From Bradyrhizobium sp. SZCCHNS1050 (GTDB taxonomy: Bacteria; Pseudomonadota; Alphaproteobacteria; Rhizobiales; Xanthobacteraceae), in assembly GCF_032484785.1 (NCBI RefSeq), contig NZ_JAUETR010000003.1, forward strand, positions 1-64,000: a stretch of DNA of 64,000 nucleotides, written 5' to 3'. The translations under genes were made by a program, and so were the position numbers. How positions within the stretch are numbered: the first letter of the stretch is position 1; each line of letters starts with the position of its first letter. Below are positions 5,200 through 39,145 of this stretch, in pieces. A model generated the notes under the pieces. That model had not been told where the DNA came from and made no database searches. It saw only the letters and a program-made list of their open reading frames with translations.

Positions 5200-5641
5200 C
5201 CTGGGCCCCTTCCTCGACGTCTCCGAACGGCGCTGGACGCTCCGCTCGGCCGAGTCATGGTCAAGCTCGGCGCAAGATGGCGGCCGCGATGGCCGATAAG
5301 GGCGGTGCTCGGCCGGTCCCGCCGCGTTCGGGGAGCGTCGATCATCGCGCAGACGATTAAATGGGCAGCTCCGCACCGTATTCTTACGTAATCTAGAATT
5401 AAATTAATTGTGTAGAGACGATTCTGCACGGTCGGAGACATAAAAGGGTAGACTGAACAAACTAAAGCTTCAATTGTACCGGACGAAAGGTACTTAAAAA
5501 TACCTTTCTGGCAATGCGGTAGCATTTTACTGCAAACCGCAGCGAGCGCTAGAAGTATTTAATGTCTTGATGTCAAATGGTAAATTAACTTGTCGCGAGT
5601 GGTTAATTTAATGCCGAAAATCGAATTCGTGCATCGTTGCG
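5200..5641. other. Non-coding, AT-rich gap with TTAAAT hexamers
   Basis: No convincing gene is seen in this 442-base stretch. From about 5350 the composition shifts to AT-rich, with TTAAAT at 5357-5362 and 5399-5404 and ATTTAA at 5557-5562 and 5606-5611. A 33-codon frame opens at 5611 (MPKIEFVHRCDD) and closes at about 5712, overlapping the next frame; it has no clear ribosome site. The stretch may be regulatory or the edge of acquired DNA. Confidence 0.5.
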
Positions 5642-6049
5642 ATGACGGTTCGGCGGCATTCGGCGAAGAAGCCCTCGAAACTCGCCAACGAGTGGGGTCC
5701 GTCCTTGTGTGACGAGCTTGGTGCCGCGTTGATTGAGGATATTGAGATGGGTGGCGGCGGTAGCGCTTTGAAGGCCGTCCTGAAATCGCTGAATAAAATA
5801 CGCCTTGCCAAATTACGTTTCGGCCGGCCAACGTCGGGCCGTTCGCAGCAATCCGCGCTGCGGTCGCAGATCGAGCTTTGTGATGCCTTGCTCGATGAGA
5901 TCCAATCCATCAGCAGCAGCCTCGGCAAACGCGCGAAGAAGTCCACGGCTTCCAGGCGTCGCCCGATGGCCACGCGGCACGGCCGCGGGACGGCGCACTT
6001 GATTCCGCCCCGGCCGGCGGTGCCGGGTCGAACCAGGCAGCAGAAATAA
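5642..6049 (+). CDS. Hypothetical protein, uncertain
   Basis: A 135-residue basic frame. The central part (residues 40-95, GGGGSALKAVLKSLNKIRL to LCDALLDEIQSISSSL) could form amphipathic helices; the tail is rich in Arg, Pro and Lys. No known motif is seen and there is no clear Shine-Dalgarno site before 5642. Codon choice is mixed (rare ATA and AAA codons near 5795), unlike the neighbouring GC-rich genes. An antisense frame of similar length exists, but the plus-strand translation looks more protein-like. It may be a small orphan gene or not expressed. Confidence 0.35.
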   Translation: MTVRRHSAKKPSKLANEWGPSLCDELGAALIEDIEMGGGGSALKAVLKSLNKIRLAKLRFGRPTSGRSQQSALRSQIELCDALLDEIQSISSSLGKRAKKSTASRRRPMATRHGRGTAHLIPPRPAVPGRTRQQK

Positions 6050-7045
6050 TCGCATCGGAATTTGATCGCCGCGCCGGCCGGCCGTCATGGCCGCGCCGGT
6101 TGCCGGCGCGAGGCGACAGCCGCTCGGCATTGACCCCTGATGACGCATCAGGTCGCCCAGTGCGGCTGTCGGTGGCGCTCGACGGCCGGATGTCATCTGG
6201 ACGTTCTTCAGCCGTCGTGTCCCGCAAGACGGCGCTCCGAGACGGGCCGGAAACCATATCGCGGCGAACCATGCGATGCTGCCGCTTCACCTGGCGCACG
6301 GGCCTCTGACGTAGCCCCCACGAGCGATGACTTTGGACAACGGGTGCCGGGATCGGCCGCCGGGTGTCCGCAGCCGTCCTCAACCTCACGGCCGATCGCA
6401 GCGGCAGTTAGTTCCGCTGCCGATGGTGTGCCCGTCTGACGCCGCGCGCCCCCCGGATGCTGTCGGCGCGACGTGAGCGAGTCTGATTCGCGCGAACGCT
6501 CCTGAAGGGTTCAATATTTGGGGAAGGCGTTTGATTCGCCGGAACAATGTCGGCGGCTTTGCGGCATATTCACGATGGCGTGCTCAATTAAACTCGCTCG
6601 CGACATTTTGTGCGCATGCAAAAATATCTCGGTCCGGGTTATCAGGGTGCTCGCTCGAATAGGTTGTAAGTCCGCCGCGGCAGCTTTGAAAACCATGGCG
6701 TGGGGAGAATATCAGCTATCAAATACGCGCAAGTTCGATCATCGAAACTACGTCACTTTGACGCGGTCTTGCCGTAATATGCTGCGAATTCGTCGCAGAA
6801 TCGTGTTGATTCGGCGACTTCTTCCGGTGTGCAGACGAATGCTGCCGCAATCTCGAAGGCGGCGCGACATCGTTTCGGAAACGGGGTTGCAGGTTGTACT
6901 TTATTTGAGTTACAACCATTTGGCTTGGCCGGGGTGGTATAACTCAAATATTCAGTTTTTCCGACCACGAGCCACTTGCGGAACGAAATACCGAATTATA
7001 TGACGTTAATCCGGCAGGATAGAGATCACAGACAAAGGTCGCTGT
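6050..7045. other. About 1 kb without a supported gene
   Basis: From 6050 to 6480 the DNA is GC-rich but no frame shows recognisable protein character. From 6490 to 7045 it is distinctly AT-richer. Frames on both strands here (plus 6518-7003, minus 6753-6968) lack ribosome sites and family motifs. The minus frame has a mildly protein-like stretch (EIAAAFVCTPEEVAES) that might be a gene remnant. The last 50 bases should hold the promoter of the H-NS-family gene. Confidence 0.45.
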
Positions 7046-7429
7046 ATGTCCACCAAGAAGATCGATTTCGAGGCGATGTCCTTCGATGACCTCTGGTCTC
7101 TCCACGAGCAGATCAGTCAGATCCTCGCCGTGAGGATCACGTCGGAGAAGCGCGAGCTCGAACGTCGACTGGCGGTTCTCAACCGCAGCCGCGGTGCCAT
7201 CGAAGGTGCCGGCAGCGAGAGTGGGCAGTCCTACACCACGAGCGGCAAGGCGCGGCGCAAATATCCCCGCGTGCTGCCGAAGTATCGCAATCCGCAGACC
7301 TCCGAGACCTGGTCCGGCCGAGGCAAGCAGCCGCGTTGGCTGGTGGCGGCGATCAAGACCGGGCATCGGATCGAGGAGTTTGCGATCAATGGGGCTGCCG
7401 CTTCGAAAAGTCGCCGTCAGCGCGCCTGA
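7046..7429 (+). CDS. H-NS/HvrA-family nucleoid-associated protein
   Basis: A 127-residue protein with the layout of the bacterial H-NS family. The N-terminal helical oligomerisation part covers residues 5-50 (FDDLWSLHEQISQILAVRI, then a Lys/Arg/Glu-rich helix). A basic linker follows. The C-terminal DNA-binding motif is YRNPQTSETWSGRGKQPRWL (about residues 83-102), and the tail is Arg-rich. The core TWSGRGKQPRWL is the AT-hook-like loop that inserts into the minor groove of AT-rich DNA. Proteins of this family silence or modulate AT-rich promoters; HvrA-type members in alphaproteobacteria also tune photosynthesis genes. AAAGG precedes the start. It sits next to a polysaccharide locus whose promoters are full of AT islands. 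Confidence 0.92.
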   Translation: MSTKKIDFEAMSFDDLWSLHEQISQILAVRITSEKRELERRLAVLNRSRGAIEGAGSESGQSYTTSGKARRKYPRVLPKYRNPQTSETWSGRGKQPRWLVAAIKTGHRIEEFAINGAAASKSRRQRA

Positions 7430-7636
7430 TCGAGGTAGCTTCAGTCAGGCCCGTTCAGAGTTTGAGCGACGTGCCGCGTCGATGCGGCACCTGATTCGCA
7501 CTGTCTGCATTGGGGAGCGACATGTGAGCGGTCTGACGCCCATGTTGCGATCCGCCGGCCAAAACCCTGAAATCGGTCCGATCTGCCCGCACGGCTCCGC
7601 CGATGGGCTCGCGATCATCATCCGTTGCGAATGCGC

Positions 7637-9109
7637 CTAATAGGCATTGTTGCCGCGGATCAGCTCGATCGGCGTCCTCAGCAGGATCGCGATGTCGAGC
7701 GACAGGCTCCAATTGTCGATGTACCAGAGATCGAATTCGACGCGCTGTTCGATCGACGCACGCGTGGGCGTCGGGCCGCGGCAGCCATGCACCTGCGCCC
7801 AGCCGGTCAGTCCGGGCTTGACGCGGCGACGGAACGCGTAGTTGCGCACGAGCTTGTCGAATTCGTTGTCGTGCGCCAATGCGTGGGGGCGGGGACCGAC
7901 CAGGGACATGCTGCCGTCCAGGACGTTGAGCAGCTGCGGCAGCTCATCGATGCTGGTCCGGCGCAGCCAGGTCCCGAGCCGGGTGAACCGGCTGTCGCCG
8001 ATCTGGGCCTGGACGATCGAAGGCCCGTCCTCGAGAACGGACATCGTGCGAAACTTGTAGATCTGAAAAGATCGGCCGTTGAATCCACAGCGCTGCTGCC
8101 GGAACAGCACTGGCCCGGCCGAGTCGAGCTTGATGGCGATCGCCACCAGCAGCAGCAGCGGCGACATCAATGCCAGCGCGATGCCCGCCAGCATGACATC
8201 CATGAGCCGCTTGGTGGCGTGTTCGAGCGGGCTCAGCAGGCCGCGCTGCAGCTCGATGCAGACCGCATTGCCGAGCTCGCGGCACGGCCGCTTGAAGAGG
8301 TCCGACGCCGTTCCGAGCGGCACGAAACTCACTGGAAACGGCAGGACTCTCAGCTCGGCGCCGAGCGTGCGCAGGTCGGACAAGGGTTCGGGATTGGCGC
8401 CGACGACGATCTCTTCGATGTCGGAGCCGCGCACATAGTCGATCACGCTGGAGACGATCCGCTGTCGCTGATCCGGATCCGCGTCGGGCTCGGGAAGCAG
8501 GAAGTGTCGCTGGACGCGAAAGCCGGTGTCGGTGAGCACCTGGGTCAGTCCAGGGTTGTCCTTGCTGGCTTCATCGGTGATCAGAACGATGTTGCGGCCC
8601 GAAAACCGTCTCTCCGCCAGCCCCTTTGCCAGCAGATAGGCGGTGGTCCGGCGATGCAGGATCAGCGCCACGAGCCCGAGCATCGCGAATACGATGCTGC
8701 TGCCGCGTGAGAATTCGCTCCCGATCTTGAGCGCGAACAGCGCGCCGGCCAACACGAGGAACGCCGTGACCCAGGTCAGGCAGGCCGCGCGGATCTGGCG
8801 CGGCAGGATCAGCAGCTCGGCCGGCCGGTACATCCCGCGGATCTTCATCAGCGAGACGAACAGTGCCGACACGAGGATCGCCAGGCCGAGCGATTTACTG
8901 ACGTCGTTGGCGCCCGCCGCATCCTGCAGGTGATACAGAAACCCGGACAGGACGCTCGACATGGTGATCGTTGCGATGTCCGCCACGATCGCGAAGGGCT
9001 CCACCGAGTCGTAGTGGACGGGCCATTTGCGCCCTTGGAATTGCCGTTCCACGAGGACGGTCGGCATTCCGTTTCGGTCGAGAGTCTCGGGCTGATCCAC
9101 GTAATGCAT
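7637..9109 (-). CDS. Undecaprenyl-phosphate sugar-1-phosphate transferase (WcaJ/ExoY type)
   Basis: A 490-residue initiating enzyme that would transfer a hexose-1-phosphate from a nucleotide sugar to undecaprenyl phosphate at the inner membrane. It has four or five N-terminal membrane segments (roughly residues 40-165). A Rossmann-like CoA_binding_3 region follows (about 175-300, [13 protein letters not shown]). A further membrane hairpin sits near 320 and a C-terminal bacterial sugar transferase domain closes the protein, with [27 protein letters not shown] and [11 protein letters not shown]. The length matches the long WcaJ/PssZ class. It is transcribed alone, divergent from the cytidylyltransferase gene across a 504-base region with AT islands. 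Confidence 0.93.
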
Positions 9110-9133
9110 GGGATGTCGGTGTTCGAAACTCGG

Positions 9134-9179
9134 TTAAATAGCGGTTAGCCGTCATTATATGTTTTGGTATTTAATTTAA
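9134..9179. promoter_or_regulatory. TTAAAT/ATTTAA island upstream of the initiating transferase
   Basis: Three hexamers are seen: TTAAAT at 9134-9139 and ATTTAA at 9169-9174 and 9174-9179. They sit just upstream of the minus-strand transferase start at 9109, inside the 504-base divergent region. The pattern of T-A steps in an otherwise GC-rich genome suits a minor-groove silencer such as H-NS or MucR/Ros. The link to a regulator is inferred. Confidence 0.5.
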
Positions 9180-9217
9180 ACAGTTAAAAATTGCCATTGG
9201 GATTTATTCGCGCCGCC

Positions 9218-9257
9218 GGATTATCTCCCGATACCGCGGATCATCTCCCGATACCGC
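9218..9257. repeat. Tandem 20-bp direct repeat in a divergent promoter region
   Basis: Two head-to-tail copies of GGATYATCTCCCGATACCGC (9218-9237 and 9238-9257) differ at one base only (T in the first copy, C in the second). A 20-bp period is close to two helical turns, so a protein could bind both copies on one face of the DNA. The repeat lies between the sugar transferase gene and the cytidylyltransferase gene. Confidence 0.75.
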
Positions 9258-9394
9258 GACGAGGTCGATGACACCGGAATGGCGGTTCTTGAAGCGCGGA
9301 AACGATGCCGAGCGCGCGCCCTCCAGGCGGTCCCGGCAAATGCCGGTGTGGCGGATTAATGTTCGTGCGGCGGATATTTCAATGCCGGACGCCA

Positions 9395-9440
9395 AGAACG
9401 GCATTTAAAAATAAATATAATTGGATTATTAATCCGGAGC
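9395..9440. promoter_or_regulatory. AT-rich island upstream of the cytidylyltransferase
   Basis: ATTTAA at 9403-9408 is followed by a run of A/T (AAATAAATATAATTGGATTA) ending near 9435. It lies about 180 bases before the start at 9614 and could contain its promoter and a silencer site. Confidence 0.45.
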
Positions 9441-9613
9441 CGGGCGCCCGCGACGCGGGTGACGTCCGCAGCAGACCGAATGCAGGGGAGGTTTTCCTCG
9501 CGCAGTCGGGAGGGCGAAACGGGGGCACGGCGAGCCGTCTCCGAGGCCGGCCGGCGAGATTGGAAGATAATGATGCTCATTTCAACGATCGAGAACCCGA
9601 AGGACGTCGCGCC

Positions 9614-10411
9614 ATGAAGGTCGTATTGTTCTGTGGAGGACTCGGGACGCGGATCCGGGAATACTCCGACAGCATTCCGAAGCCGATGATCCCGATCGGC
9701 CATCAGCCGATCCTCTGGCATGTCATGCAGTATTACAGCCAGTACGGGCACCGGGATTTCGTTCTGTGCCTGGGCTACAAGGCCAATGTGGTGAAGGAGT
9801 ATTTCCTGAACTACAATCAGGCGTCCACCACCGACTGTACGATCTCGCAGTTCGGCAGGAAGGTCGAGCTGCTGGGCGATCGCCCACCGGATTGGCGGGT
9901 CTCGCTGGTGGACACCGGCATCTGGCGCAACATCGGCCAGCGACTGCGGGCCGTCCGGCACATGGTCGAGGGCGAGGAGATCTTTCTCGCCAACTACAGC
10001 GACGGCCTGACGGACGCGCCGCTGCCGGAGATGATCGATCGTTTCAAGCGCAGCGGGAAGATCGGCTGCTTCATCGCCATCCATCCGCCGATCAGCTTCC
10101 ACCTCGCCGAATTCGACGCCGACGGCACCGTGGGCCGCATGGCGGCGAGCAATGATTCCAACATCTGGATCAACGGCGGCTACTTCATCTTCCGCAAGGA
10201 GATCTTCGACTATATCGAGGAGGGGGATGAGCTGGTCGTGCAGCCGTTCAAGCGGCTGATCGACCGCGGCGAGCTGATGGCCTACCGCTACGAAGGGTTC
10301 TGGCGGGCCATGGACACGCTCCGCGACCGCCAGGTGCTCGAGGAGATGATCGAGCGCGGCGACACGCCTTGGCATCTCGGCTCCAGCCTTCCGGCTGTGG
10401 TGAACGGATGA
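9614..10411 (+). CDS. rfbF: Glucose-1-phosphate cytidylyltransferase
   Basis: A 265-residue nucleotidyltransferase that would make CDP-glucose from CTP and glucose-1-phosphate, the entry step to CDP-linked deoxysugars. It has the N-terminal loop MKVVLFCGGLGTRIREYS and the sugar-phosphate motif SIPKPMIPIG. LANYSDGLTD is the metal-binding site, WINGGYFIF follows, and YEGFWRAMDTLRDR is typical of RfbF. The length matches the family. The start at 9614 is chosen over an upstream in-frame codon at 9305 because the family motif begins at once and GAAGGA lies upstream. The stop overlaps the next gene (ATGA), so the two are coupled. Confidence 0.92.
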   Translation: MKVVLFCGGLGTRIREYSDSIPKPMIPIGHQPILWHVMQYYSQYGHRDFVLCLGYKANVVKEYFLNYNQASTTDCTISQFGRKVELLGDRPPDWRVSLVDTGIWRNIGQRLRAVRHMVEGEEIFLANYSDGLTDAPLPEMIDRFKRSGKIGCFIAIHPPISFHLAEFDADGTVGRMAASNDSNIWINGGYFIFRKEIFDYIEEGDELVVQPFKRLIDRGELMAYRYEGFWRAMDTLRDRQVLEEMIERGDTPWHLGSSLPAVVNG

Positions 10412-11061
10412 GGGCGCTGCAGCTCGCCGGTCGCGGCGACCGGCTGTCGGTCCTGTGCCTCGGTGCGCATTCCGACGACATCGAGATCGGCGCCGGAGGC
10501 ACGCTGCTGTCCTGGCTCGACCAGGGCATCCGCCTGGATGTTCATTGGTGCGTGCTCAGCGGCAATGGCGAGCGCGGCGTCGAGGCGCGGGCGTCTGCCG
10601 AGGATTTCCTCGCCGAGGCCGCCGGCCGCAATCTCGAGATCATGCAGTTCCGCGACGGCTTCTTCCCCGAGCAGGGCGAGGAGATCAAGGCCTGGTTCGA
10701 GCAGCTCAAGGGCCGCATCAATCCCGACGTCATCCTCGCCCACCGCCGCGACGACGCCCATCAGGACCATCGGCAGGTCAACCGCCTGGTCTGGAACACG
10801 TTCCGCGATCATCTCGTCCTGGAGTACGAGATTCCGAAATGGGATGGCGATCTCGGACGGCCCAATGTCTACATGCCCGTCTCCGAGCGGATCATGAAGC
10901 GGAAGGTCGCGCTGCTGATGGCGCATTTCGGCAGCCAGCGCTCCAAGCAATGGTTCGACCCGGAAACGTTCATGGGACTGGCGCGGTTGCGGGGCATGGA
11001 ATGCCGCGCCGCCGAGCGCTATGCCGAGGCATTCGTCGCGCGCAAGCTGTCACTGGGGTGA
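10408..11061 (+). CDS. PIG-L/LmbE family deacetylase
   Basis: A 217-residue zinc-dependent N-deacetylase-like protein. The zinc motif LGAHSDDIEIG lies at residues 18-28 (His21, Asp24), and the later motif HRRDDAHQDHRQVN supplies the third ligand. Family members remove acetyl from N-acetylated sugars or act on small metabolites. In this setting it probably deacetylates a nucleotide or lipid-linked amino sugar for the polysaccharide. The start at 10408 overlaps the stop of the cytidylyltransferase gene. This pair is transcribed as a unit and ends facing the cysteine-rich protein gene. Confidence 0.88.
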   Translation: MRALQLAGRGDRLSVLCLGAHSDDIEIGAGGTLLSWLDQGIRLDVHWCVLSGNGERGVEARASAEDFLAEAAGRNLEIMQFRDGFFPEQGEEIKAWFEQLKGRINPDVILAHRRDDAHQDHRQVNRLVWNTFRDHLVLEYEIPKWDGDLGRPNVYMPVSERIMKRKVALLMAHFGSQRSKQWFDPETFMGLARLRGMECRAAERYAEAFVARKLSLG

Positions 11062-11158
11062 ACGGCGGCCGAAGGCGCTCGCCGCGAAGGGCGCATCGAT
11101 ATCCGATCGGCGAGGAGATGATCGGCGCTTGGCCGCGATGCGTCGCTGCGCCCGGCGG

Positions 11159-12259
11159 TCAGCCGGCCGCCCGTCGGGGAAGTTCGACGATCTCCTCTGC
11201 CGGCGGGCGCTCGATTGCGGTGGACGGCACCTTCTCCAGCCAGACCTCGCGCCACCACGCATAGATGCCGCGTGGGCAGAACAACCGGTTCTCGCTGTAG
11301 CGCGACTGGCAATAGACGCCGTCGAGGATGACGGCCGGCGTCTTCATCCGCCGGATGTAGCCGGTGCGTTCGTCGATGAACTTCTCGACCCGCGTTCGCA
11401 CCCGGAACACCTTGCCGCAATAGGGCACCATCTCGGCGTCGAAGCCCATGCCGCGGTTGTTGGTCTGTTTGTCGATGGTGGCCAGGATGTCCTGGTGCGG
11501 GCGCACGCGGACAAGATCACCGGGCTGCAGCCCGAGATCGGCGATCGGCGCGTCCTTGTCCGTTAGGAGATCGCCGCGCTTGCGCGGAAACGGTACGCCG
11601 CCCCACAGCGACTGGACGCGGTCGTAGATCCAACGCGCGGGCCGGCCGAGCCGGGGACGACGCGCCATGGTGGCGCCGACATAGGCGAAGTAGAGGAAGC
11701 CCCGGAACATCTTCGCGAGCGAGACATTGCCGGACGCGATGTCCTCGGCGTATTGCCGGGCGTCCCACCATTTGAGCGGCTGGGTGTAGGTCGGCAGCTC
11801 GGTCGCCTGGCAGGCGTAGCGCGGGCCCTTTCCCGGCTGCTGGTCCGGCGACTTGGTCGCATCCCACACCGCGCGCACCGTGCAGCCGCCGGGCGGCGGA
11901 AGGGGAGCCGCGCGATCCGGGCCGGCCGACGCTGGTTTGGCCGGATCGACCGGGGTGAGCCACGCCTCCTTCCAGAAGATCAGGCAGGCCGCCTGGCAGC
12001 CGCCATAGGCCTCGCCGTCGCAGCGATGCTCGAGATGCACCGCGTCGGGGAGGCGCCGTCCGAGCCACTCTCCGGTGTTGTATCCGGTGACCGTGTCGCA
12101 GGTCTTGTGGGCGCGCTTGTAGACCTGGAAGCGCTGGCCGCACCATTTGAACATCTGCGGCATGAACGGCAACCCTTCGAGGCGTCCGTTGGCATCGAGC
12201 GTCGCCAGGATCTCTTCCTTGCTGCGCACTTCGACCCAGTCGCCGGCGGATAGTGTCAT
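11159..12259 (-). CDS. Duplicated cysteine-rich protein of unknown function
   Basis: A 366-residue soluble protein built from two related units. Unit 1 (about residues 6-101) runs from GDWVEVRSKEEILATLD through FKWCGQRFQVYKR to IFWKEAWL. Unit 2 (about 247-341) runs from GDLVRVRPHQDILATID through VPYCGKVFRVRTR to WWREVWL. Unit 1 carries Cys40, 54, 80, 88 and 92, with CDGEAYGGCQAAC resembling a metal or Fe-S site. Unit 2 keeps Cys281, 317 and 328. The linker has a proline-rich part and Cys126/150. No signal peptide is seen. I do not recognise an assigned function. It is divergent from the epimerase gene and lies within the sugar-modification block. Confidence 0.75.
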   Translation of the reverse strand: MTLSAGDWVEVRSKEEILATLDANGRLEGLPFMPQMFKWCGQRFQVYKRAHKTCDTVTGYNTGEWLGRRLPDAVHLEHRCDGEAYGGCQAACLIFWKEAWLTPVDPAKPASAGPDRAAPLPPPGGCTVRAVWDATKSPDQQPGKGPRYACQATELPTYTQPLKWWDARQYAEDIASGNVSLAKMFRGFLYFAYVGATMARRPRLGRPARWIYDRVQSLWGGVPFPRKRGDLLTDKDAPIADLGLQPGDLVRVRPHQDILATIDKQTNNRGMGFDAEMVPYCGKVFRVRTRVEKFIDERTGYIRRMKTPAVILDGVYCQSRYSENRLFCPRGIYAWWREVWLEKVPSTAIERPPAEEIVELPRRAAG

Positions 12260-12391
12260 GCTCTGTCTTTCAATGCTTCAATCAATGCGTCATCGAGGCG
12301 GGCGGGGCATCCCGCGCGGGACGCCTCATTTGCAGGGATCGAATTAAAGCTGCCGAGGTCTGCGATCAACATTTGTTCGTTTTGCGGCATT

Positions 12392-12603
12392 ATTTAATTG
12401 AGCGAATTAATTAAATCAAGAGGGGGCCTGATGCCGCGCCGGCCGGATGATCGCAACATCAGGCGGGTCGGGGTAAATACACGGGTTTTCCCGGAGTTTT
12501 GTGCGTCGTGCCGGAGAAATCGGCGGGCGGCGTCGCTTGCCGACGGATTCACTGGACGCTGGCTAGAATATTAAATTATAATCCACTACAGGATGATTTA
12601 AAT
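12392..12603. promoter_or_regulatory. Two AT-rich islands in the divergent region 12260-12637
   Basis: Island one has ATTTAA at 12392-12397 and TTAAAT at 12411-12416. Island two has TTAAAT at 12571-12576 and ATTTAAATT covering 12596-12604. The 378-base gap lies between the cysteine-rich protein gene and the epimerase operon and holds no gene. The second island ends about 35 bases before the epimerase start, so it probably overlaps that promoter. Confidence 0.5.
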
Positions 12604-12637
12604 TCTTGTTTTGGCTTGTGGCATAGAGGGTGCGATT

Positions 12638-18056: not shown

Positions 18057-19214
18057 ATGAGTTCGCAGCCGGCCAAGCCCCGCATCGCCGTCTTCTCACT
18101 CCGAAACATCTTCGGCAAAGCCCTCAATCGCGGTCCTCACGTCGAGTTCGAGGACATCATCTGCGAGGTCGATTCAGCCGAGATGTTTGCACCCGTGCTC
18201 GACCCGTCGAGCCGACGGGCGAGCTTCGCCACCCGGCTGGGCTACCACGCGCCCGTGCTGTTGAATCCCGGGCTGGCGCGGATCGAGCCGCAACAGCAAT
18301 ACGACGTTCTGTTCGCGATCTGCGGATTCCCGCAGGACCTGATCATGTTCAATGCGATCGAGGATCTGAGAGGCGCGTGCAGGACCTCGGTGTGTCTGCT
18401 GGACGAGCTCTGGGTGAAGGAGATCGCCAAGCACCGGCATTTCCTGAAGATCCTCGCCAAGTTCGACGTCGTGATGCCGTTCCAGATCAGTACGGTGAAG
18501 CCGCTCAGCGAGGAGATCGGCAAGGCATGCGTGCATCTTCCGCTCGCCATCGATGCGATCCGGTTTTGTCCCTATCCCGATCCGCCCGCAAGGGTCATCG
18601 ACGTCTTCAGCATGGGGCGCCGCTCCCGTGTCACGCACCAATCACTGCTCGCGATGGCGCGGGACAGCGGCCTGTTCTATCTCCACGACACGATCGGCGG
18701 CAGCCAGGCCATCGATCTCCGGGAGCACCGGACGCAGATGGCAAACCTCGCCAAGAGGAGCAGGTATTTTCTGGTCAATCCCGGCAAGTTCGACGAGCCG
18801 CAGGAGACCGGGCGGCAGGTCGAGTTCGGCTATCGGTATTTCGAGGGCGCGGCGGCGGGAGCCATCATGCTCGGCGAGCGTCCCGACAACGAGCTGTTTC
18901 CGCGGCTGTTCGATTGGCCCGAGGTGATGATCGACGTGCCGCATACATCGCCCGACATCGACCGGGTCATCAGGGAGCTGGACGACGATCCGGTCCGCCA
19001 GGACCGGATGCGGCGAACCGGCATGGCCCAGACGTTGATGCGGCATGACTGGGTGTATCGGTGGGAGACGATCTTGGAGGCCACGGGTCTGCAGCCGATG
19101 CCGGGCCTCGCTGCCCGCAAGGATCGGCTGAAGAGGCTGGCCGCGATGGCGGCCGGTCCGGCGATCACGCGCGAGCAGGAGTTAAATCGCAAGCCGGTAT
19201 TGTTGGCGCAGTGA
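18057..19214 (+). CDS. CgeB-like glycosyltransferase
   Basis: A 385-residue GT-B-type protein. The N-terminal half (YDVLFAICGFPQDL, TSVCLLDELWVKEI) resembles the CgeB/Glyco_trans_1_2 group. The C-terminal half has FGYRYFEGAAAGAIMLGE, where the FEG-AAG segment contains the acidic residue that contacts the nucleotide sugar, followed by a glycosyltransferase-like helical tail (HDWVYRWETIL). It probably adds one sugar of the repeat unit on the cytoplasmic face. The ATG at 18057 follows GAGG by six bases; a longer in-frame extension overlaps the DUF4910 gene and is rejected. It ends the operon that begins at 12638. Confidence 0.85.
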   Translation: MSSQPAKPRIAVFSLRNIFGKALNRGPHVEFEDIICEVDSAEMFAPVLDPSSRRASFATRLGYHAPVLLNPGLARIEPQQQYDVLFAICGFPQDLIMFNAIEDLRGACRTSVCLLDELWVKEIAKHRHFLKILAKFDVVMPFQISTVKPLSEEIGKACVHLPLAIDAIRFCPYPDPPARVIDVFSMGRRSRVTHQSLLAMARDSGLFYLHDTIGGSQAIDLREHRTQMANLAKRSRYFLVNPGKFDEPQETGRQVEFGYRYFEGAAAGAIMLGERPDNELFPRLFDWPEVMIDVPHTSPDIDRVIRELDDDPVRQDRMRRTGMAQTLMRHDWVYRWETILEATGLQPMPGLAARKDRLKRLAAMAAGPAITREQELNRKPVLLAQ

Positions 19215-20899: not shown

Positions 20900-20957
20900 G
20901 AGGGAGCGAAAGGAGCCCGGAACCCCGCCCTCGTGCCGCGATTAACTATCGCGATCG

Positions 20958-21002
20958 TTAAATGTTACATATAAAATATCCCGTGATTTAAATGTTTTAA
21001 AT
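20958..21002. promoter_or_regulatory. AT-rich island overlapping the next start codon
   Basis: TTAAAT occurs at 20958-20963 and 20997-21002 and ATTTAAAT at 20986-20993, with ACATATAAAATAT between. The last hexamer runs into the ATG at 21001. A protein bound here would cover both the promoter and the translation start of the following operon. Confidence 0.5.
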
Positions 21003-26526: not shown

Positions 26527-27408
26527 TCAGGCCTCCGGCATGACGACTCCGCCGCACACCGGCACGCGAACGCCGGTCACGAAACCGGCGAGGTCCGAGG
26601 CCAGAAACGCGATCATGTTGGCGACGTCCTGATCGTAGCCGCGCCGTCCGAGCGGCACGGACCGCTCGTAGAGCGGCTGCACCTCGTCACGGTCACGACG
26701 GTCCTTGTCGGAGACGACCCAGCCCGGGGCGACCTGATTGACCGTGATGCCATGCGGTCCGAGCTCCCGCGCCAGGGACCGCAGCATGCCGTCCATGGCG
26801 CATTTGGCCGCCGTGTAGGGCGCGCGATTGGGCAAGGCCAGGCTCGTCATCTCCGTGCCGAGAGAAATCAGGCGTCCCCATTTTCGCTCGATCATCGGGC
26901 CGGAAAACACCCGCGCGGTCGCCCAGGCCTGCAGGACCGAGGAGCGAAACACCTTGTCGAACTGGTCGGGCGTCTGCTCGACGACGGGACGTTCGTCGTA
27001 CCATGTCACCGCATTGTTCACGACGATGTCGACGGGGCCGAGCACACCCTCGGTGACGCGGCGCATGGCCTGCACATCCTCGAGCTCGGCAACGTCACCC
27101 GAAATGGTGCAGGCGTGCTGCGGCTGGAGCTCGTTCAGCTCCTCGCACAGCCTCTCCGCAGCAGCGCGCGCCGTCAGATAATGGATGGCGACCTTTGCAC
27201 CACAGGCCGCCAGTGTCCGGGCGATCGGGCGGCCGAGCTCTCCCGCCGCTCCCGTGACCAGCGCGACCTTGCCCGAGAGATTGATCTGGAGCGGGGACCT
27301 CAACGGTCGCAGTGCCGGATCGTCCGGCAGGGGACCGAGCGTATGTCGTCGAATTCGTCGTGCAACTGCGCTCGCGATCCGCATCCACCCGTCCCCGAAA
27401 GTATTCAT
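26527..27408 (-). CDS. Short-chain dehydrogenase/reductase
   Basis: A 293-residue classical SDR with an N-terminal extension of about 45 basic residues before the NAD(P) loop ALVTGAAGELGRPIA. NNAVTWYDE is the NNAG-type motif, and PYTAAKCAMDG is the active-site YxxxK segment. NQVAPGWVVSDKD follows. The serine region is LISLGTEMTSLA. It would reduce a keto group on a sugar or small acyl substrate. It is convergent with the amidotransferase gene, and its upstream region holds a TTAAAT island. Confidence 0.88.
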   Translation of the reverse strand: MNTFGDGWMRIASAVARRIRRHTLGPLPDDPALRPLRSPLQINLSGKVALVTGAAGELGRPIARTLAACGAKVAIHYLTARAAAERLCEELNELQPQHACTISGDVAELEDVQAMRRVTEGVLGPVDIVVNNAVTWYDERPVVEQTPDQFDKVFRSSVLQAWATARVFSGPMIERKWGRLISLGTEMTSLALPNRAPYTAAKCAMDGMLRSLARELGPHGITVNQVAPGWVVSDKDRRDRDEVQPLYERSVPLGRRGYDQDVANMIAFLASDLAGFVTGVRVPVCGGVVMPEA

Positions 27409-27425
27409 TGGTCGGGGTCGCAGTA

Positions 27426-27449
27426 TTAAATGCGGGACTAATTATTTAA
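27426..27449. promoter_or_regulatory. TTAAAT/ATTTAA island upstream of the SDR gene
   Basis: TTAAAT at 27426-27431 and ATTTAA at 27444-27449 lie 18 to 41 bases before the SDR start at 27408, where its promoter should be. Confidence 0.5.
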
Positions 27450-27510
27450 ACTGCACAATTTGACGCATTTGTGCAGCAGGCGATGGAGCGGTGAAGGGGT
27501 GCCGATGCGC

Positions 27511-29888: not shown

Positions 29889-29946
29889 TTAAATCGTGAT
29901 TTAATATTATGTCATGGCGCGTGTCAAAGTCATGGTGTTTTTAAAT
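29889..29946. promoter_or_regulatory. AT-rich island in a divergent promoter region
   Basis: TTAAAT occurs at 29889-29894 and 29941-29946, and ATTTAA at 29899-29904. The island fills much of the 181-base gap between the GT2 gene and the beta-helix protein gene, so it can affect both promoters. Confidence 0.5.
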
Positions 29947-33464: not shown

Positions 33465-33544
33465 CGATCTCACCAGGATATTCGAACGGCGCGGCCCCGG
33501 CAGCCGCCGGGAATACCGTCCGTGAACATTATCCGGAGATGCAA

Positions 33545-33660
33545 TTAAATAAAAGGACTTCGACGTGCGCCGGGAAGATATTGCTGCAGCCGCGCCGCAA
33601 ATCTGCCCTGGCATTTACAAATAAACCGTATTAAATAAATGGTATGATTTAAAATTAAAT
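33545..33660. promoter_or_regulatory. AT-rich island between polymerase and WecB-STAS genes
   Basis: TTAAAT at 33545-33550, 33631-33636 and 33655-33660 and ATTTAA at 33647-33652 lie in the 294-base divergent region. The 33620-33660 part is almost entirely A/T. It is one of the densest islands in the window. Confidence 0.5.
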
Positions 33661-33758
33661 GGTGGCTTTTGGGTCGCACGTTATTCGGTCGGGGAGGTGC
33701 GGCAGGGATCCGCAACCCGGAATCCTCGTGCGGCGGGCAGATTGAGGGAGAGCGGCGG

Positions 33759-34967
33759 ATGCTGACCACGCATGAATTGCAGGAGCCGGGATCCCCCCTT
33801 TATCGCGTGGGGCGCTCCGGGGCGGGTCGCGATCGGCCGGAGGTCGATGCTGCCGCCCTGGCCGACGCCGCGATTCCCGACGACCTCGCGCGCGACGTCT
33901 ATTGCGTCCTCGGAATACCGGTCGATGCCATCGGCATGCGCGGCGTACTGCGCCGCATCCGCGACGCTGCCCGACGCAGGAGCCGGCTTCTCATCTCGAC
34001 TCCCAATCTCAACTTCCTGGTCGCCAGCCAGTCGAACAGGAGCTTCAGGGAGTCGCTGATCCTGAGCGATCTTTGCACGGTGGACGGCATGCCGGTGGTC
34101 TGGATCGCTAGGCTGCTTGGGATTCCGATCAAGAGCCGGACGGCCGGCGCCGATATCTTCGACGCGCTGAAGTCGGAGGCCGCGCCGGCAAACGCGCTGA
34201 AGCTCTTTCTTTTCGGTGGCCCGGAGGGGGCCGCCGAACGGGCCGCCCGGACGCTGAACGGCCAGTCGGCGGGATTGCAGTGCGTGGGCTGGTTGAACCC
34301 CGGCTATTTGTCGGCCGAGGAGTTGAGCCGGGATCACATCATCGACGAGATCAATGCCAGCGGGGCGGACTTCCTGGTTGCCTCGCTCAGCAGCGTGAAG
34401 GGACAATCATGGCTGCAGCGCAATCATGAGTGCCTCGAGATTCCAGTTCGCGCCCACCTCGGCGCCGCGCTCAACTTCCAGGCCGGGACGGTGAAGCGCG
34501 CACCGGCGATCCTGCGCCAATCAGGCTTCGAGTGGCTGTGGCGCATCAAGGAGGAGCCCTATCTCTGGCGCCGCTATTGGAACGATGGCACGGCGATGCT
34601 CGGCCTCATGCTCACCCACGTGTTGCCGTTCGTGGTGTGGACCTGGTGGATGCGCCGCACGCATGAGCGGGGTGAGGCGCTGACCATCACGCAGGACTAT
34701 GGGACGCGCGCGGTCACGCTCAGCCTGTCGGGGCCCGCCGATGCGCGCCACGTAGACCGGGCCATTCCGGTGTTCCGCGCCGCTTCGGCGTCCCGCAAGC
34801 CGGTCACGATCGATTTCTCGAACGTCTGCGCCATGGATGCGCGCTTCCTCGGATTGCTGCTGATGCTGAGGAAGCAATTGGAAGCCCAGGGCTGTACCGC
34901 GACCTTCGTGGGCGTTTCGCCGCTGATGGCCCGCATCTTCCGCTTCGGCGGTCTGGACCAGCAATGA
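33759..34967 (+). CDS. WecB/TagA/CpsF glycosyltransferase fused to a STAS domain
   Basis: A 402-residue two-domain protein. Residues about 55-240 form a GT26 (WecB/TagA/CpsF) domain with TPNLNFLVASQSNRSF, DLCTVDGMPVVWIARLLG, KLFLFGGPEGAAERAA, a conserved WLNPGYLS loop and RAHLGAALNFQAGT. Residues about 305-400 form a STAS domain (VTLSLSGPADARHVDRAI, TIDFSNVCAMDARFLGLLL, FRFGGLD). In SpoIIAA-type domains the phosphorylated Ser follows the Asp of the MD-S motif; here that site is Ala361 (MDAR), so phosphoregulation is unlikely. GAGGGAG lies 8 bases before the ATG. The enzyme would add a sugar such as ManNAcA or GlcA to a lipid-linked acceptor. Confidence 0.88.
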   Translation: MLTTHELQEPGSPLYRVGRSGAGRDRPEVDAAALADAAIPDDLARDVYCVLGIPVDAIGMRGVLRRIRDAARRRSRLLISTPNLNFLVASQSNRSFRESLILSDLCTVDGMPVVWIARLLGIPIKSRTAGADIFDALKSEAAPANALKLFLFGGPEGAAERAARTLNGQSAGLQCVGWLNPGYLSAEELSRDHIIDEINASGADFLVASLSSVKGQSWLQRNHECLEIPVRAHLGAALNFQAGTVKRAPAILRQSGFEWLWRIKEEPYLWRRYWNDGTAMLGLMLTHVLPFVVWTWWMRRTHERGEALTITQDYGTRAVTLSLSGPADARHVDRAIPVFRAASASRKPVTIDFSNVCAMDARFLGLLLMLRKQLEAQGCTATFVGVSPLMARIFRFGGLDQQ

Positions 34968-35135
34968 GAGGGGGAGGCCTGTCATCGGTCGCATCACGGC
35001 TTCAGCAGTCGGTGGTTCGATGATCGCCGCCGCGACGCTTGCCCGCGTTGCGAAGGATTGCCTGAGCCGTCAGTCCGACCGGCGCCCATCGGCTGACCGT
35101 CGCCCATGGAGCGACGTGTATTCGGAGATTGAGCG

Positions 35136-36170
35136 GTGAGCGCAGCAGGCCAGAAGAGGCGCGAGCTTCTGATCGACTTCTATCGAAGCTGCGCGATGTT
35201 GTTCGTATTCTATCATCACACGGCCAACGTCTTTCCGGACTCCGTCGATCTGTTCACGAAATTCAACCCCTTCGCCGAACTGTTCGTCGTGATCTCGGGG
35301 TTCATGGTCGGGTACGTCTATCTGCACAAGGAGAGGCACGGAGAGCTCCTCGCCCGCGGCTTGAAGGTGCTCGCCGCCTATTTCGTCATCTCGGTGCCGG
35401 TCGCGGTCGGCATGGCTGTTCTGGGGAACAAGCGAGAGCCGGTGGGGCAGGCGATTTTCGACGTGCTGACGTTTCAGTCCGAGCCGACCGCCATCACAAT
35501 CCTCAAGTTCTACGGGCTGATGTTCCTGCTGCTGCCGGTGATCCTGCCGATGTTCAAGCGCGGCAGGCTCCTGGTGCTCGCGTCGTCGGCTGCGATCTTC
35601 GTGGCCTCCACCTGGTTCAGCAACACGAGCACGGCAGCCAAGCTCGAGAGTCCCGCCATCATTCTGTTGCTGTTCTCGCTCCAAGCGCAGATGTTCTTCG
35701 TGATCGGTATCTGGCTCGGAGATCTCCATCGGTCCAACCGCTTGATCGGACCCGCGTTCTATACGGCGCTGGCGGGGATCTTCACCTTCGGGCTGCTGCT
35801 CGATTACAGCCTCGGCTTTCCCAGCAACGGCGAAAAATACCCCTATCGGTTCGACAAGCTCCTCAACCTGCTTTGGACATTGCCGCTGCTGTTGGCGCTG
35901 CTGTGGGCGGTGTTCGCGCGCACCCGGCGATCGCCGGCGGTCTCGCTCATCCTCAACGTCGGCCAGAACTCGCTGATCGCGTTCCTCGGGTCGGAGGTGG
36001 TGCGGCAATCGGTCAAGCTCGCGCTCCTCCTGGGCGGCGTCCACCCGCAGGTTTACGGCCAGACCGTGATGGGCCTGTTCGATGTCGTCCTGGTCACCGC
36101 GGTGCTTTGGCTCTACCGGGCGCACTGGCTGAACCGCCAGACAATGCTGCACCCGCTCAGCGGGCCGTAG
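35136..36170 (+). CDS. OpgC-like membrane acyltransferase
   Basis: A 344-residue integral membrane protein with about ten segments. The N-terminal ELLIDFYRSCAMLFVFYHHT and FNPFAELFVVISGFMVGYVY match the OpgC/acyltransferase-3 pattern, with His residues in the first segment. OpgC-type proteins attach succinyl or other acyl groups to periplasmic glucans; here the target may be the exopolysaccharide. The start is GTG at 35136 with GGAG upstream. It follows the WecB-STAS gene after 168 bases and is on the same strand. Confidence 0.8.
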   Translation: MSAAGQKRRELLIDFYRSCAMLFVFYHHTANVFPDSVDLFTKFNPFAELFVVISGFMVGYVYLHKERHGELLARGLKVLAAYFVISVPVAVGMAVLGNKREPVGQAIFDVLTFQSEPTAITILKFYGLMFLLLPVILPMFKRGRLLVLASSAAIFVASTWFSNTSTAAKLESPAIILLLFSLQAQMFFVIGIWLGDLHRSNRLIGPAFYTALAGIFTFGLLLDYSLGFPSNGEKYPYRFDKLLNLLWTLPLLLALLWAVFARTRRSPAVSLILNVGQNSLIAFLGSEVVRQSVKLALLLGGVHPQVYGQTVMGLFDVVLVTAVLWLYRAHWLNRQTMLHPLSGP

Positions 36171-36289
36171 CCGCATCTTTCGCCTGAAAGTGTTGCCCTG
36201 ATGCGCTTGTTCGAATCCTCCCGGGCGGCTTAGCTCATCGCTAACCAATGGCCGCTAGCCTCTCGAAACGCCCGAGGAGGCATGAACTG

Positions 36290-36550
36290 ATGTGGGTGAT
36301 CGCGCTTCATTTTACAGCCGGGGTGGTTGCCGGGACGATGTTCACGGTTCGCACGCTGCTGGCGCTCGCCGCGATCGTCTTCATGGAGTGCATCGCGGCG
36401 TCGATCATCAGCGGGCTGCCGGCCGTGCTCTATGCCGGCGCCGGTCTGATTGCAGTCCAGGTGGGCTATCTCTCGGGCGTCTATGTCCGCAGCGCTCTGG
36501 AGCGTGCCGGCATCGCCCATCCCTCCATTCGCCCCGAGCACCAGCGCTGA
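36290..36550 (+). CDS. Small two- or three-helix membrane protein
   Basis: An 86-residue protein with hydrophobic segments at about residues 3-20, 25-45 and 47-65 (MWVIALHFTAGVVAGTMF, LLALAAIVFMECIAA, VLYAGAGLIAVQVGYLSGVY). The start at 36290 is chosen because the strong site GAGGAGG ends 9 bases upstream; a longer start at 36248 lacks one. It ends 66 bases from the convergent wzc-like gene. I do not recognise a function; small membrane proteins in such loci may assist export. Confidence 0.65.
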   Translation: MWVIALHFTAGVVAGTMFTVRTLLALAAIVFMECIAASIISGLPAVLYAGAGLIAVQVGYLSGVYVRSALERAGIAHPSIRPEHQR

Positions 36551-36616
36551 CCGTCGATCGATTTCCGTTGCCGGCCGCGGCCCATGGCGCGCACCGGCCG
36601 GCGCGCGCTGATCGAC

Positions 36617-38983
36617 CTACTCGGCCATCACGCTCCCGTAACGGGCGTAATATTTGTGGTTGTAGTAGTCGCCGAAATGATTGGCGTAGCGCTTCAGCGC
36701 CTTCATGTTCGTCTTGTTGAGCACGACGCCGAACAGAGCATCGTAGACGTTGGGAGCCGTGTTCAGCGCGTGCTCGACCACCTCGGCCGGCGTGCGCCCC
36801 CATTCCACGACGAGGACGAAGCTGTCGAGCAGCGCGGAGATGGCGCGCGCGTCGACAACGGGCGCGAGCGGCGGAAGATCGACGATGACGTAGTCATAGG
36901 CTGCCCGCAGCTGCTCGAACAGCTTGCGCATCTGCTCGTTGCCGAGGATGTCGCTGGTGTCGCGCTGCATGGCACCCGTTCCCGGCAGGAAATCCAGGCG
37001 CGTCAGCGGGTCGGTCCAGACTGCGTCTGCGAGCTGGCATCCTCCCAGGACGATGTCGGCGATCCCAGTGCTGGCATCGGGGGCCAGCATGGCGGAAAGC
37101 GACGGATTCCTGAGGTCGCAATCGACCACGATCACACGCTTGCCTGAATTTGCGATGAGCTGAGCCAGCGACGCGGCGATGATCGACTTGCCTTCGTTGG
37201 GCAGGGCGGACGTCAGTCCGAAGACCTTCCGCGACGTCGGGCTTGGATCCTGGTCGATGGCGACTTTCAACGAGCGGATGGATTCGGCGAAGCGCGATGT
37301 GGGCATGGCGGATGCGGCCCAGCAGGTTCCGGGGCCTCTCGTCACCATTCGCGGGCTGGAATCGGGTTCGACCTTGGAAACGGCGTTGACTGTCGCCTTC
37401 TTGGTGAACCGGTCGACCTCGCCTCGTTTGAGCAGAGGGACGACCGAGAGGCAGGGCAGGCGCAGGCGATCCTCGACCTGGTCGGTCGTCCGAAAGCTGC
37501 GGTCCTTGACTTCTGCGAGCAGGCCGAGGCCGCCGCCGAGCGCCAGGCCCCCGAACAGGCCGAGCGCCATCAGCACGATGGACTTCGGCTTGATCTTCTT
37601 CTTCGGCGGCGTGGCCGCTGAGATCACCCGCGCCTTCGCAATCGGGAAGGAGCCCTGCTGGACTGAGCCCATGTAGCGCTGAAGAAAGGTGTCGTAGAGC
37701 GTGCGATAGCTCTTGGCGCTGGTCTCCAGCTCGCGGAGGCTGAGCTCGGCCGCCCTGGTATCCTGCGACCGGACAACGGCCTGTGCAAGCTGCTTCTCGA
37801 TCTCCTGCTGCTGCTGCTTGGACTCCTCGTAATCGTGCTTGGCGACGTCGGCAAGGCGCCGCACCTCGTCGACGATAGCCTGGCGGATGCTCTTCATCGT
37901 CGCGCGAATATTGACGACCGCGATATGATCCTTGCCATATTTGGCGGAATACTCGTACTCGCGCTTGGCGTTATCGAGGTATTGCTGACGCAAGCTGTTG
38001 ATGATGAGCGTGCTGTTCGAATTGCTCAAGGAGAGACCGTCGGGCGGATTGACATTGCCGCTGAGCTCTGCCGGGGAGAAGTCGGAGACCGCGGCTACGC
38101 GGTCGATCGTCATATCGGCACTGCTCGTCGCGAGCATGTCGTCGAACCGATTGAGCCGGGTCATCAGCGAGGCGGTACGCGTGCGCACTGCCACCAGACG
38201 GTTGGTGAGCTCGGTGACCTGCTGCTGGTCCATGAACCTGCCGTCGGCCGAGACGATGTTGTACCGGCTTTTCAGCTCGTTCACGGAACGTTCGGTCGCG
38301 GTCGCGTCGTTGCCGAGATCCTGCAGGCGGTCGTGAAGCCAGGCGGTGATTGTGCGGTGCTCGTTCGCGTCCGCCTTCAACTGCTGATCGAAATACTCCT
38401 TGACGATGGCGTTGGCGATCATCGCCGCCCGATTGGGGTCGCTGGCGCTGAAATCGACCTCGACGACCGTGCTCGTGCCAATTCTGAAGGCGTTCATTCT
38501 GCGCTGGAATTCGTCGAGGAGATCGTCCATCGAGGGCGCGTTCGGCTGCGGCGCCGAACCCACGAGACGGCGAACCGCATCAACCGCACCATGCAGCGGG
38601 CTGGCTTTGCCGTTGAAGTCGGGATCGTCCGCCAGATTGAGCTTGTCGATGACCGCTGTCGCGATCGACTTCGATTTGAGAATCTCGATCTGCGATTCCA
38701 TGTCGAGCGGCGGCTCGTCCTGAACGGGCGGTTGCGGCTGGACGACTGCGGCCTTCGAGGTGGTGCCCAGCATGATCTTGACGTCGGCCGAGTAGGTGGG
38801 CGGCAGGATTTTCAGCAGGGCGAAGCTCGCCAGGAGCGAAAGCACGGTGGTGATCGCAATCACCAGATAGTGCCGGCGCAGGAATCCCAGCGCCATGTCG
38901 AACGGTCCGGGTCCGCTACGTTCCCAACCTTGCTCCTGTGGGGAGGGGTAGGTAACCGTGCTCGCGTTGGGATTGTGCAGCAT
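36617..38983 (-). CDS. Wzc/ExoP-type polysaccharide co-polymerase and tyrosine kinase
   Basis: A 788-residue inner-membrane protein. The first membrane segment (HYLVIAITTVLSLLASFALL) is near residue 40, followed by a Wzz domain, a long coiled-coil periplasmic region (about 200-430), a GNVR segment and a second membrane helix near 480. The cytoplasmic BY-kinase domain has Walker A SALPNEGKSIIAASLAQL, Walker A' RVIVVDCDLRNPSLS and Walker B YVIVDLPPL. The last 25 residues hold a tyrosine cluster (FGDYYNHKYYARYG), the autophosphorylation tail. It would control chain length and couple polymerisation to export through the Wza-like protein. No partner phosphatase is seen in the window. Confidence 0.93.
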   Translation of the reverse strand: MLHNPNASTVTYPSPQEQGWERSGPGPFDMALGFLRRHYLVIAITTVLSLLASFALLKILPPTYSADVKIMLGTTSKAAVVQPQPPVQDEPPLDMESQIEILKSKSIATAVIDKLNLADDPDFNGKASPLHGAVDAVRRLVGSAPQPNAPSMDDLLDEFQRRMNAFRIGTSTVVEVDFSASDPNRAAMIANAIVKEYFDQQLKADANEHRTITAWLHDRLQDLGNDATATERSVNELKSRYNIVSADGRFMDQQQVTELTNRLVAVRTRTASLMTRLNRFDDMLATSSADMTIDRVAAVSDFSPAELSGNVNPPDGLSLSNSNSTLIINSLRQQYLDNAKREYEYSAKYGKDHIAVVNIRATMKSIRQAIVDEVRRLADVAKHDYEESKQQQQEIEKQLAQAVVRSQDTRAAELSLRELETSAKSYRTLYDTFLQRYMGSVQQGSFPIAKARVISAATPPKKKIKPKSIVLMALGLFGGLALGGGLGLLAEVKDRSFRTTDQVEDRLRLPCLSVVPLLKRGEVDRFTKKATVNAVSKVEPDSSPRMVTRGPGTCWAASAMPTSRFAESIRSLKVAIDQDPSPTSRKVFGLTSALPNEGKSIIAASLAQLIANSGKRVIVVDCDLRNPSLSAMLAPDASTGIADIVLGGCQLADAVWTDPLTRLDFLPGTGAMQRDTSDILGNEQMRKLFEQLRAAYDYVIVDLPPLAPVVDARAISALLDSFVLVVEWGRTPAEVVEHALNTAPNVYDALFGVVLNKTNMKALKRYANHFGDYYNHKYYARYGSVMAE

Positions 38984-39065
38984 GTTTGTGGGGCTTTTCA
39001 GTTGCGCTTCGGACGTCAGAGCCGCCCGGTTTGCCTGCGAGAACGAGGATCTTGTTTTATAACCA

Positions 39066-39145
39066 TTAAATGATCTGGGAGTGCCGCGCGATTTAATTTA
39101 TATTAAATCTGATTTTGCTCAGCAAGTGGCTCTGCAAAATTAAAT
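39066..39145. promoter_or_regulatory. AT-rich island in the wzc/response-regulator divergent region
   Basis: The 327-base gap 38984-39310 has TTAAAT at 39066-39071, 39103-39108 and 39140-39145 and ATTTAA at 39091-39096. It is the rightmost such island in the window. No gene is seen in the gap. Confidence 0.5.

Follow-up and report, generated by a model that had tools for sequence, protein, structure and literature searches.

Clustered TTAAAT hexamers at the promoters of a Bradyrhizobium surface-polysaccharide locus as candidate operators of the H-NS protein encoded within it

Introduction

The surface-polysaccharide locus described here raises the question of why so many of its promoters carry the same short A/T word, and which protein might read it. 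Surface polysaccharides are important in rhizobial symbiosis and in contact with phages, and H-NS proteins are generally seen as global silencers that prefer AT-rich DNA only loosely. The locus occupies 3.1-39.1 kb of the window, the name used here for the whole stretch of 64,000 bases that was analysed, which is the start of a 352,489-base contig in the 7.62 Mb genome of Bradyrhizobium sp. SZCCHNS1050. It encodes a Wza-type export protein, an H-NS protein, a WcaJ-type transferase, sugar-nucleotide enzymes, glycosyltransferases, Wzx, Wzy and Wzc. An original prediction, made from the letters alone, placed about 27 copies of TTAAAT or its complement in about ten AT islands and attributed them to one silencer, of the H-NS or the MucR/Ros type, acting on the whole locus. 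Four genes are central to the argument:

3098..4426, minus strand: Wza-type polysaccharide export protein (PF02563, PF22461)
7046..7429, plus strand: H-NS-family protein of 127 amino acids (PF00816, E 5e-17), the candidate reader of the islands
7637..9109, minus strand: WcaJ-type undecaprenyl-phosphate glucose phosphotransferase (TIGR03023, above cut-off), the conserved partner beside H-NS
36617..38983, minus strand: Wzc-type chain-length determinant/kinase (PF02706, PF13614), with a candidate target promoter

The Hexamer in the Window and in the Genome

Counting both TTAAAT and ATTTAA, the window holds 31 copies, and every island named in the prediction is present. The first copy starts at 5357 and the last lies at 39140-39145, with none in 1-5356 or 39146-64000 of the window, in keeping with the predicted lack of islands at 40-64 kb. 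In 100 dinucleotide shuffles of the window the mean was 2.68 copies and the maximum 7, and TTAAAT is the commonest of its all-A/T hexamers (31 against 2.5 expected; the runner-up, ATTAAA, has 21).

With the minus-strand ORF 35070-36248 taken as coding, where an OpgC-like ORF on the plus strand (35136-36170) is probably the real gene, 28 of the 31 copies fall outside called genes, non-coding DNA making up 5136 of the 34,848 bases of 4427-39274. The non-coding blocks hold 27 copies, as compared with 3.1 in dinucleotide shuffles (maximum 11 in 1000). The hexamers had been said to be confined to promoters, which describes most of them; three lie inside called genes, at 9403, 19182 and 33545. The copy at 19182 is a lone extra within a glycosyltransferase ORF, and that at 9403 is probably upstream of the true start, because the nucleotidyltransferase domain of its ORF (9305-10411) begins only at residue 104. 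Sixteen non-coding blocks longer than 40 bp were sorted by gap type, with orientations assigned by hand from the gene calls. All six divergent gaps have at least three copies, as the claim of islands in every main divergent region required, the largest of these blocks (4427-7045) including short ORFs of doubtful standing. Two of the six tandem gaps have 2-3 copies (20900-21000 and 27409-27510), and these are the islands foreseen before the 21 kb operon and the SDR gene. The four convergent gaps have none.

A genome-wide count, over coding and intergenic DNA together, agrees with this picture. The whole genome (7,620,657 bases) has 157 copies of TTAAAT, fewer than the 229 of the reversed control word, and 31 of the 157 lie in the window, which is 0.84% of the genome; the other 288 kb of the same contig have six. 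When 100-bp segments of 45-65% AT were compared, the locus had 7-10 times the shuffled expectation, as against 0.7-0.8 times in a sample of the same genome (20 stretches, 400 kb). The single sampled segment above 65% AT contains a cluster on contig C1, in a stretch picked for that cluster.

Contig C1 has 94 TTAAAT, and this cluster (4489553-4489576) is its sole group of more than two within 300 bp, contigs C2 and C4-C6 having been left out of the own-genome cluster search. Its four copies stand 37-60 bp upstream of an acyltransferase gene:

C1:4488260-4489576 (L020 8257-9576): Acyl_transf_3 gene with its upstream cluster

Among 22 other genomes only a relative, G089, has a close homologue of this acyltransferase (87%; the next is 35%), with hexamers 46 and 55 bp upstream that align with two of the four. 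Its nearest relative in its own genome is the acyltransferase inside the window locus (34%). The cluster suggests that the C1 gene is an unlinked member of the same regulon, which would be acted upon in trans.

Conservation of the Hexamers

G089 also has a syntenic counterpart of the locus (window 3.1-39.1 kb), at 72-86% nucleotide identity by match. In this one pair of genomes, 27 of the 31 hexamers align and 20 of those are identical, while 17 of 51 other all-A/T six-mers are. Identity is 94.1% at hexamer bases, 66.9% in the 8-bp flanks, 70.0% in other non-coding DNA and 83.4% in coding DNA, the coding set including the doubtful ORF 35070-36248 and an ORF taken as 10455-11264 for which 10369-11061 fits better. 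Because the hexamers are more conserved than their flanks, other non-coding and coding bases, the sites look selected, which argues against a mutational or compositional origin; together with the 31 copies against 2.7 in shuffles, this upholds the earlier view that chance or mutation is the less likely source. The islands and their state in G089 are as follows:

5357..5611: island 1, four hexamers, in the region from which the Wza-type export gene and the ORFs leading to H-NS diverge; two of four alignable, both identical
9134..9179: island 2, three hexamers, 25-70 bp upstream of the WcaJ-type transferase start; three of three identical
9403..9408: single hexamer, upstream of the nucleotidyltransferase domain; differs
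12392..12603: island 3, five hexamers, divergent gap 12260-12610, before the 12.6-20.9 kb genes; two unaligned and three non-identical, with other copies close by in G089
20958..21002: island 4, four hexamers including the palindrome ATTTAAAT, before the 21.0-26.5 kb genes; two of four identical
27426..27449: island 5, two hexamers, before the SDR gene (26527-27408, minus strand); one of two identical
29889..29946: island 6, three hexamers, divergent gap between a GT2 gene and a beta-helix gene; three of three identical
33545..33660: island 7, four hexamers, within or next to the divergent gap that separates Wzy from a WecG-STAS gene; four of four identical
39066..39145: island 8, four hexamers, upstream of Wzc at the right edge of the syntenic locus; four of four identical

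The match to G089 breaks at 39145 and restarts at 49028. The roughly 10 kb between (39146-49027) are absent at the matching place in G089, carry no TTAAAT and include an OmpR-type response regulator and a histidine kinase (39275-41412), which are at most a local addition, since the DNA there is missing from G089. A stretch at 34958-36188 with an OpgC/acyltransferase-like gene is likewise unmatched in the syntenic locus of G089 and free of TTAAAT.

The Hexamer and H-NS across Bradyrhizobium

An H-NS gene is present in 88 of 146 genomes of the genus, and in at least 57 of those 88 (15 from the discovery searches, the present genome included, and 42 from the held-out set) it is found no more than about 2 kb from a transferase homologue. 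In the discovery set, TTAAAT was found upstream of the transferase at 16 of 17 loci linked to H-NS, the window included, the miss being G014, scored from L107 in place of a locus cut around its linked transferase. It was found at none of 14 unlinked loci, three of which come from genomes with H-NS elsewhere (G008, G014, G017). Two loci with the transferase at a contig edge (L060, L067) were left out of this table.

The same tendency is seen in the density of the word, which is at least five times that of the genome in 12 of 14 linked loci of relatives, G030 being counted on two TTAAAT in 7.6 kb. The linked locus of G025 reaches only 2.7-fold, and that of G014 has no copy in its first 20 kb and 11 further along the contig. 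Twelve unlinked transferase loci range from 0 to 2.5-fold. Another 20 loci surround H-NS genes that have no transferase beside them, four of these genes sitting at the distal end of a type-1 locus; here TTAAAT is enriched by a factor of two or more in 19 cases and of four or more in 14. A control A/T word goes up as well, by 1.7-6.1-fold in 13 linked loci, with zero in one (about 3-fold overall), and 0.7-7.1-fold at the 20 other H-NS loci, where it equals or exceeds TTAAAT in five, four from G025; part of the TTAAAT signal is therefore AT richness. Across the 146 genomes, with kinship ignored, the count of the eight-mer AATTAAAT follows H-NS copy number with a rho of 0.82, compared to 0.59 for the control word and 0.56 for the ratio, which is 1.52 in genomes with one H-NS gene and about the same, 1.53, in those with none.

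A prediction for the transferase promoter was then fixed before a held-out test, with a preset pass share of 80%, the AATTAAAT places in G089, G141, G074, G076, G163 and G159 being already visible at that point. Thirty loci were drawn from 67 H-NS genomes and 30 from 43 H-NS-less genomes, and 12 type-2 loci and eight paralogues were hand-picked by H-NS adjacency or its lack, with hexamers disregarded. Pooled, 38 of 42 linked loci have the hexamer, above the preset share. Twenty-nine of the 30 type-1 loci have it upstream of the transferase (G152 has none), although, being orthologous, these are not independent trials. The type-2 loci gave nine of 12 (75%), below the preset 80%, and one of the nine has it only at +14. 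No hexamer was found at any of the 30 loci of H-NS-less genomes, nor at the eight paralogues that lie apart from H-NS in genomes which carry it; for one held-out locus, L246, the upstream sequence was limited to 469 bases. Mean AT over the 300 bp upstream was 0.486 for type-1, 0.478 for type-2, 0.470 for H-NS-less loci and 0.456 for unlinked paralogues. The transferases of type-1 loci show 55-89% identity and belong to a different subfamily from the unlinked ones (38-46%), and the type-2 ones show 37-41%, so that only the type-2 loci break the confounding of linkage with transferase subfamily.

Gene content was compared over stretches of 7.6-60 kb per locus, beyond which genes were scored absent. 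Of the genes of the window that were tested, H-NS and the transferase alone are shared by all linked loci (16 of 16 each), the transferase being also in all 12 unlinked loci, and most of the window's sugar-cassette genes are missing from some linked loci within the stretches fetched. With H-NS and the transferase constant and most cassette genes not, TTAAAT evidently goes with different cassettes. The three nearest relatives of the transferase among named records are from Bradyrhizobium (55-62% identity), and matches of 57-66% occur in genomes of its own genus.

The Word Found de novo and the Layout of Its Sites

The word also emerges when it is not specified beforehand. In a comparison of 14 linked with 12 unlinked loci, the window excluded, TTAAAT was the top of 2,080 six-mers (185 versus 16), ATTAAAT the top seven-mer (99 versus 3) and AATTAAAT the top eight-mer (47 versus 0). 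When the H-NS loci were split into type-1, type-2 and the remainder, TTAAAT came top of about 2,080 six-mers in each group, and next to top in a smaller subset of the remainder; among seven-mers, ATTAAAT took the 1st, 3rd, 4th and 19th places in these four sets. Simple AT richness was rejected as the source, as AT-matched segments remain enriched in linked and not in unlinked loci: at 55-65% AT, TTAAAT stands at 5.3 times the shuffled expectation versus 0.8 times, and at 45-55% AT at 2.1 versus 0.3 times; for all segments of at least 55% AT, the linked loci show 5.3-6.4 times. TATATA is enriched as well in linked loci (20 versus 2), with none in the window.

Pairs of sites 7-60 bp apart occur in every orientation (RF 51, FF 46, RR 35, FR 34). 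No fixed spacing was seen besides the 2-bp overlap that makes ATTTAAAT (31 cases), nor any helical spacing, the strongest of ten periods tried over 166 pairs scoring 0.12, at 11.5 bp. With mixed orientation and no fixed half-site spacing, a classical dimeric operator was rejected; such loose clusters suit a polymerising protein that nucleates on high-affinity words more than they suit a dimeric operator.

The H-NS Protein of the Locus

The H-NS/HvrA-type gene predicted at 7046 is there, its PF00816 C-terminal DNA-binding domain (residues 78-114) scoring 61.8 bits against a curated cut-off of 25.6, and a search of the genome found this one H-NS gene only, in the polysaccharide locus. An AlphaFold model (mean pLDDT 78.5, pTM 0.36) has a long N-terminal helix at 13-53, a low-confidence linker at 56-64, and short strands and a helix at the C-terminus; at this moderate confidence, the protein appears to have the H-NS layout of N-terminal helix, linker and small C-terminal domain. 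Its DNA loop reads TWSGRGK (7307-7327), and of 27 aligned H-NS proteins of the genus 25 have RGK there and two have RGR. The known loop of H-NS, which enters the minor groove in the manner of an AT-hook, is RGR or QGR. The best PDB sequence match is 2l92 (E 8e-7), an H-NS family protein that we take to be Bv3F of Burkholderia vietnamiensis; the TWSGRG stretch is common to both, and the loop is RGR there and RGK here.

In a tree, the protein groups with the transferase-linked H-NS1 of other Bradyrhizobium, at a support of 85/83 that is below the starred level. Its own promoter has no TTAAAT in the 300 bp upstream, and 23 of 47 H-NS genes have one within 300 bp. In ten type-1 loci (L083, L084, L087, L089, L091, L093, L095, L162, L163 and L164) two divergent H-NS genes adjoin each other, and the window has one member only of the divergent pair seen in type-1 loci of other species.

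A Proposed Mechanism and Its Alternatives

The sites are real, conserved beyond their surroundings and mostly upstream of genes, and they track H-NS genes across the genus. The reading preferred here, with a probability of about three in four, is that the islands are operators of the locus-borne H-NS, which would nucleate at TTAAAT clusters and silence the polysaccharide promoters, the binding being argued from comparison among genomes and the silencing from what the family does. The 127-residue protein would oligomerise through its long N-terminal helix, and its TWSGRGK loop would enter the minor groove of A/T DNA at TTAAAT, with ATTAAAT and ATTTAAAT as fuller forms. The nucleation sites would be loose clusters of two to five copies in either orientation and at no fixed spacing, from which the protein probably coats or bridges the promoter DNA, and it probably holds the locus off until a relieving signal arrives. 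Since the word is usual at H-NS-carrying sugar-coat clusters and absent from the comparable H-NS-less ones examined, TTAAAT looks like an address label of the locus-borne H-NS.

The original prediction of one silencer for the whole locus left room for a MucR homologue, and on that point it has to be narrowed: the conservation, held-out, de novo and copy-number results favour an H-NS-type reader, and MucR is disfavoured. A Ros/MucR protein that reads the islands beside a bystander H-NS gene would be an attractive idea in that MucR is described as binding AT-rich DNA with T-A steps and regulating exopolysaccharide genes (PMC8857273, PMC9779718, PMC10572780), and the genome has one MucR match, on another contig. 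Yet every one of the 36 Bradyrhizobium genomes checked has MucR, and 15 of them lack H-NS, which means that having MucR is not enough to account for the pattern. The 14 island-free rows of the discovery set include 11 of these 15 genomes, and the other three, G008, G014 and G017, have MucR too. With no islands at any of these 14 unlinked transferase promoters, all from MucR-bearing genomes, MucR was rejected as the discriminating factor; the 30 island-free H-NS-less loci of the held-out set come from genomes other than the 36. Moreover, the reported MucR core AAATA (PMC5693944) is enriched only 1.6-fold in linked loci as against 4.2-fold for TTAAA, and a MucR reader is accordingly quite improbable. 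Somewhat less so, and still unlikely, is that H-NS binds the islands as a counter-silencer, displacing a protein such as MucR and switching the locus on, as Ler does in LEE. Ler is an H-NS relative reported to relieve silencing (PMC4466236) and the second of the two PDB matches of the window protein, and an H-NS promoter free of TTAAAT means that H-NS need not be shut off itself. Against this, no second H-NS that a counter-silencer might oppose was found in the genome, and the Ler loop is given as VGR (PMC4466236), while the RGK found here is nearer the RGR of the best PDB match.

TTAAAT is a narrower word than the preferences described for H-NS in the cited papers, and this could point to some other sequence-specific transcription factor that merely co-occurs with H-NS. 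Such a factor is very improbable, as no window gene tested besides the transferase and H-NS is in all 16 linked loci, the clusters have mixed orientation and no helical spacing, and the same word recurs at other H-NS loci. Hardly credible is a by-product of AT-rich, horizontally acquired DNA: the linked loci are indeed rich in AT and a second A/T word is about 3-fold enriched in them, but the enrichment persists in AT-matched segments (5.3-6.4 times at 55% AT or more in linked loci, 0.8 times at 55-65% in unlinked ones), and the hexamers are more conserved against G089 than their own flanks and coding DNA.

Beyond the window, the operator reading leads to a tentative proposal, given slightly less than even odds, that the H-NS proteins of Bradyrhizobium are hexamer-specific silencers in portable modules, in which H-NS and the WcaJ-type transferase would stay while cassettes swap, incoming promoters would gain TTAAAT and genes of other replicons could be recruited. 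Under this proposal, H-NS and TTAAAT would work together as an operator system complete in itself. One branch of H-NS seems to go with a single defined hexamer and a single kind of gene cluster. The natural contrasts of presence and absence within the genus make it directly testable how silencers locate their targets and gain control of new genes.

Comparison with Known Systems

Searches of the open-access literature for the literal hexamers returned nothing relevant among the matches listed. Among the matches listed for H-NS with Bradyrhizobium, HvrA or alphaproteobacteria, judged by titles and the starts of abstracts, there was no study of a Bradyrhizobium H-NS, and the pairing of a polysaccharide locus, an adjoining H-NS gene and one promoter hexamer across a genus was likewise not among the matches listed. 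It is already known that H-NS paralogues occur on mobile loci and that H-NS controls capsule and exopolysaccharide (PMC7074111, PMC8231446).

H-NS is reported to prefer multiple TpA steps such as TATATATA (PMC4466236), and TTAAAT differs from the sequences given there in being a specific hexamer with one TpA step. The zinc-finger Ros/MucR proteins resemble the present case in an H-NS-like silencing of AT-rich promoters, polysaccharide genes included, and differ from it in having, by these accounts, little or no sequence consensus (PMC8857273, PMC10746212, PMC10572780) and in being present with or without islands. The cepacian locus of Burkholderia multivorans comes close, since raising the level of an H-NS-like protein is reported to lower expression of an exopolysaccharide locus with AT-rich promoters; these are described in the part consulted as low-GC with AT-rich stretches, with no defined hexamer (PMC8231446), in contrast to the TTAAAT of the window locus. 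Like Hfp/H-NSB, H-NST, Sfh and Ler, the first of which is reported to affect a capsule, the window protein belongs to the H-NS relatives whose genes lie on loci that move horizontally (PMC7074111). Those proteins act beside a chromosomal H-NS, whereas in this genome no H-NS other than that of the locus was found, and a promoter word accompanies it.
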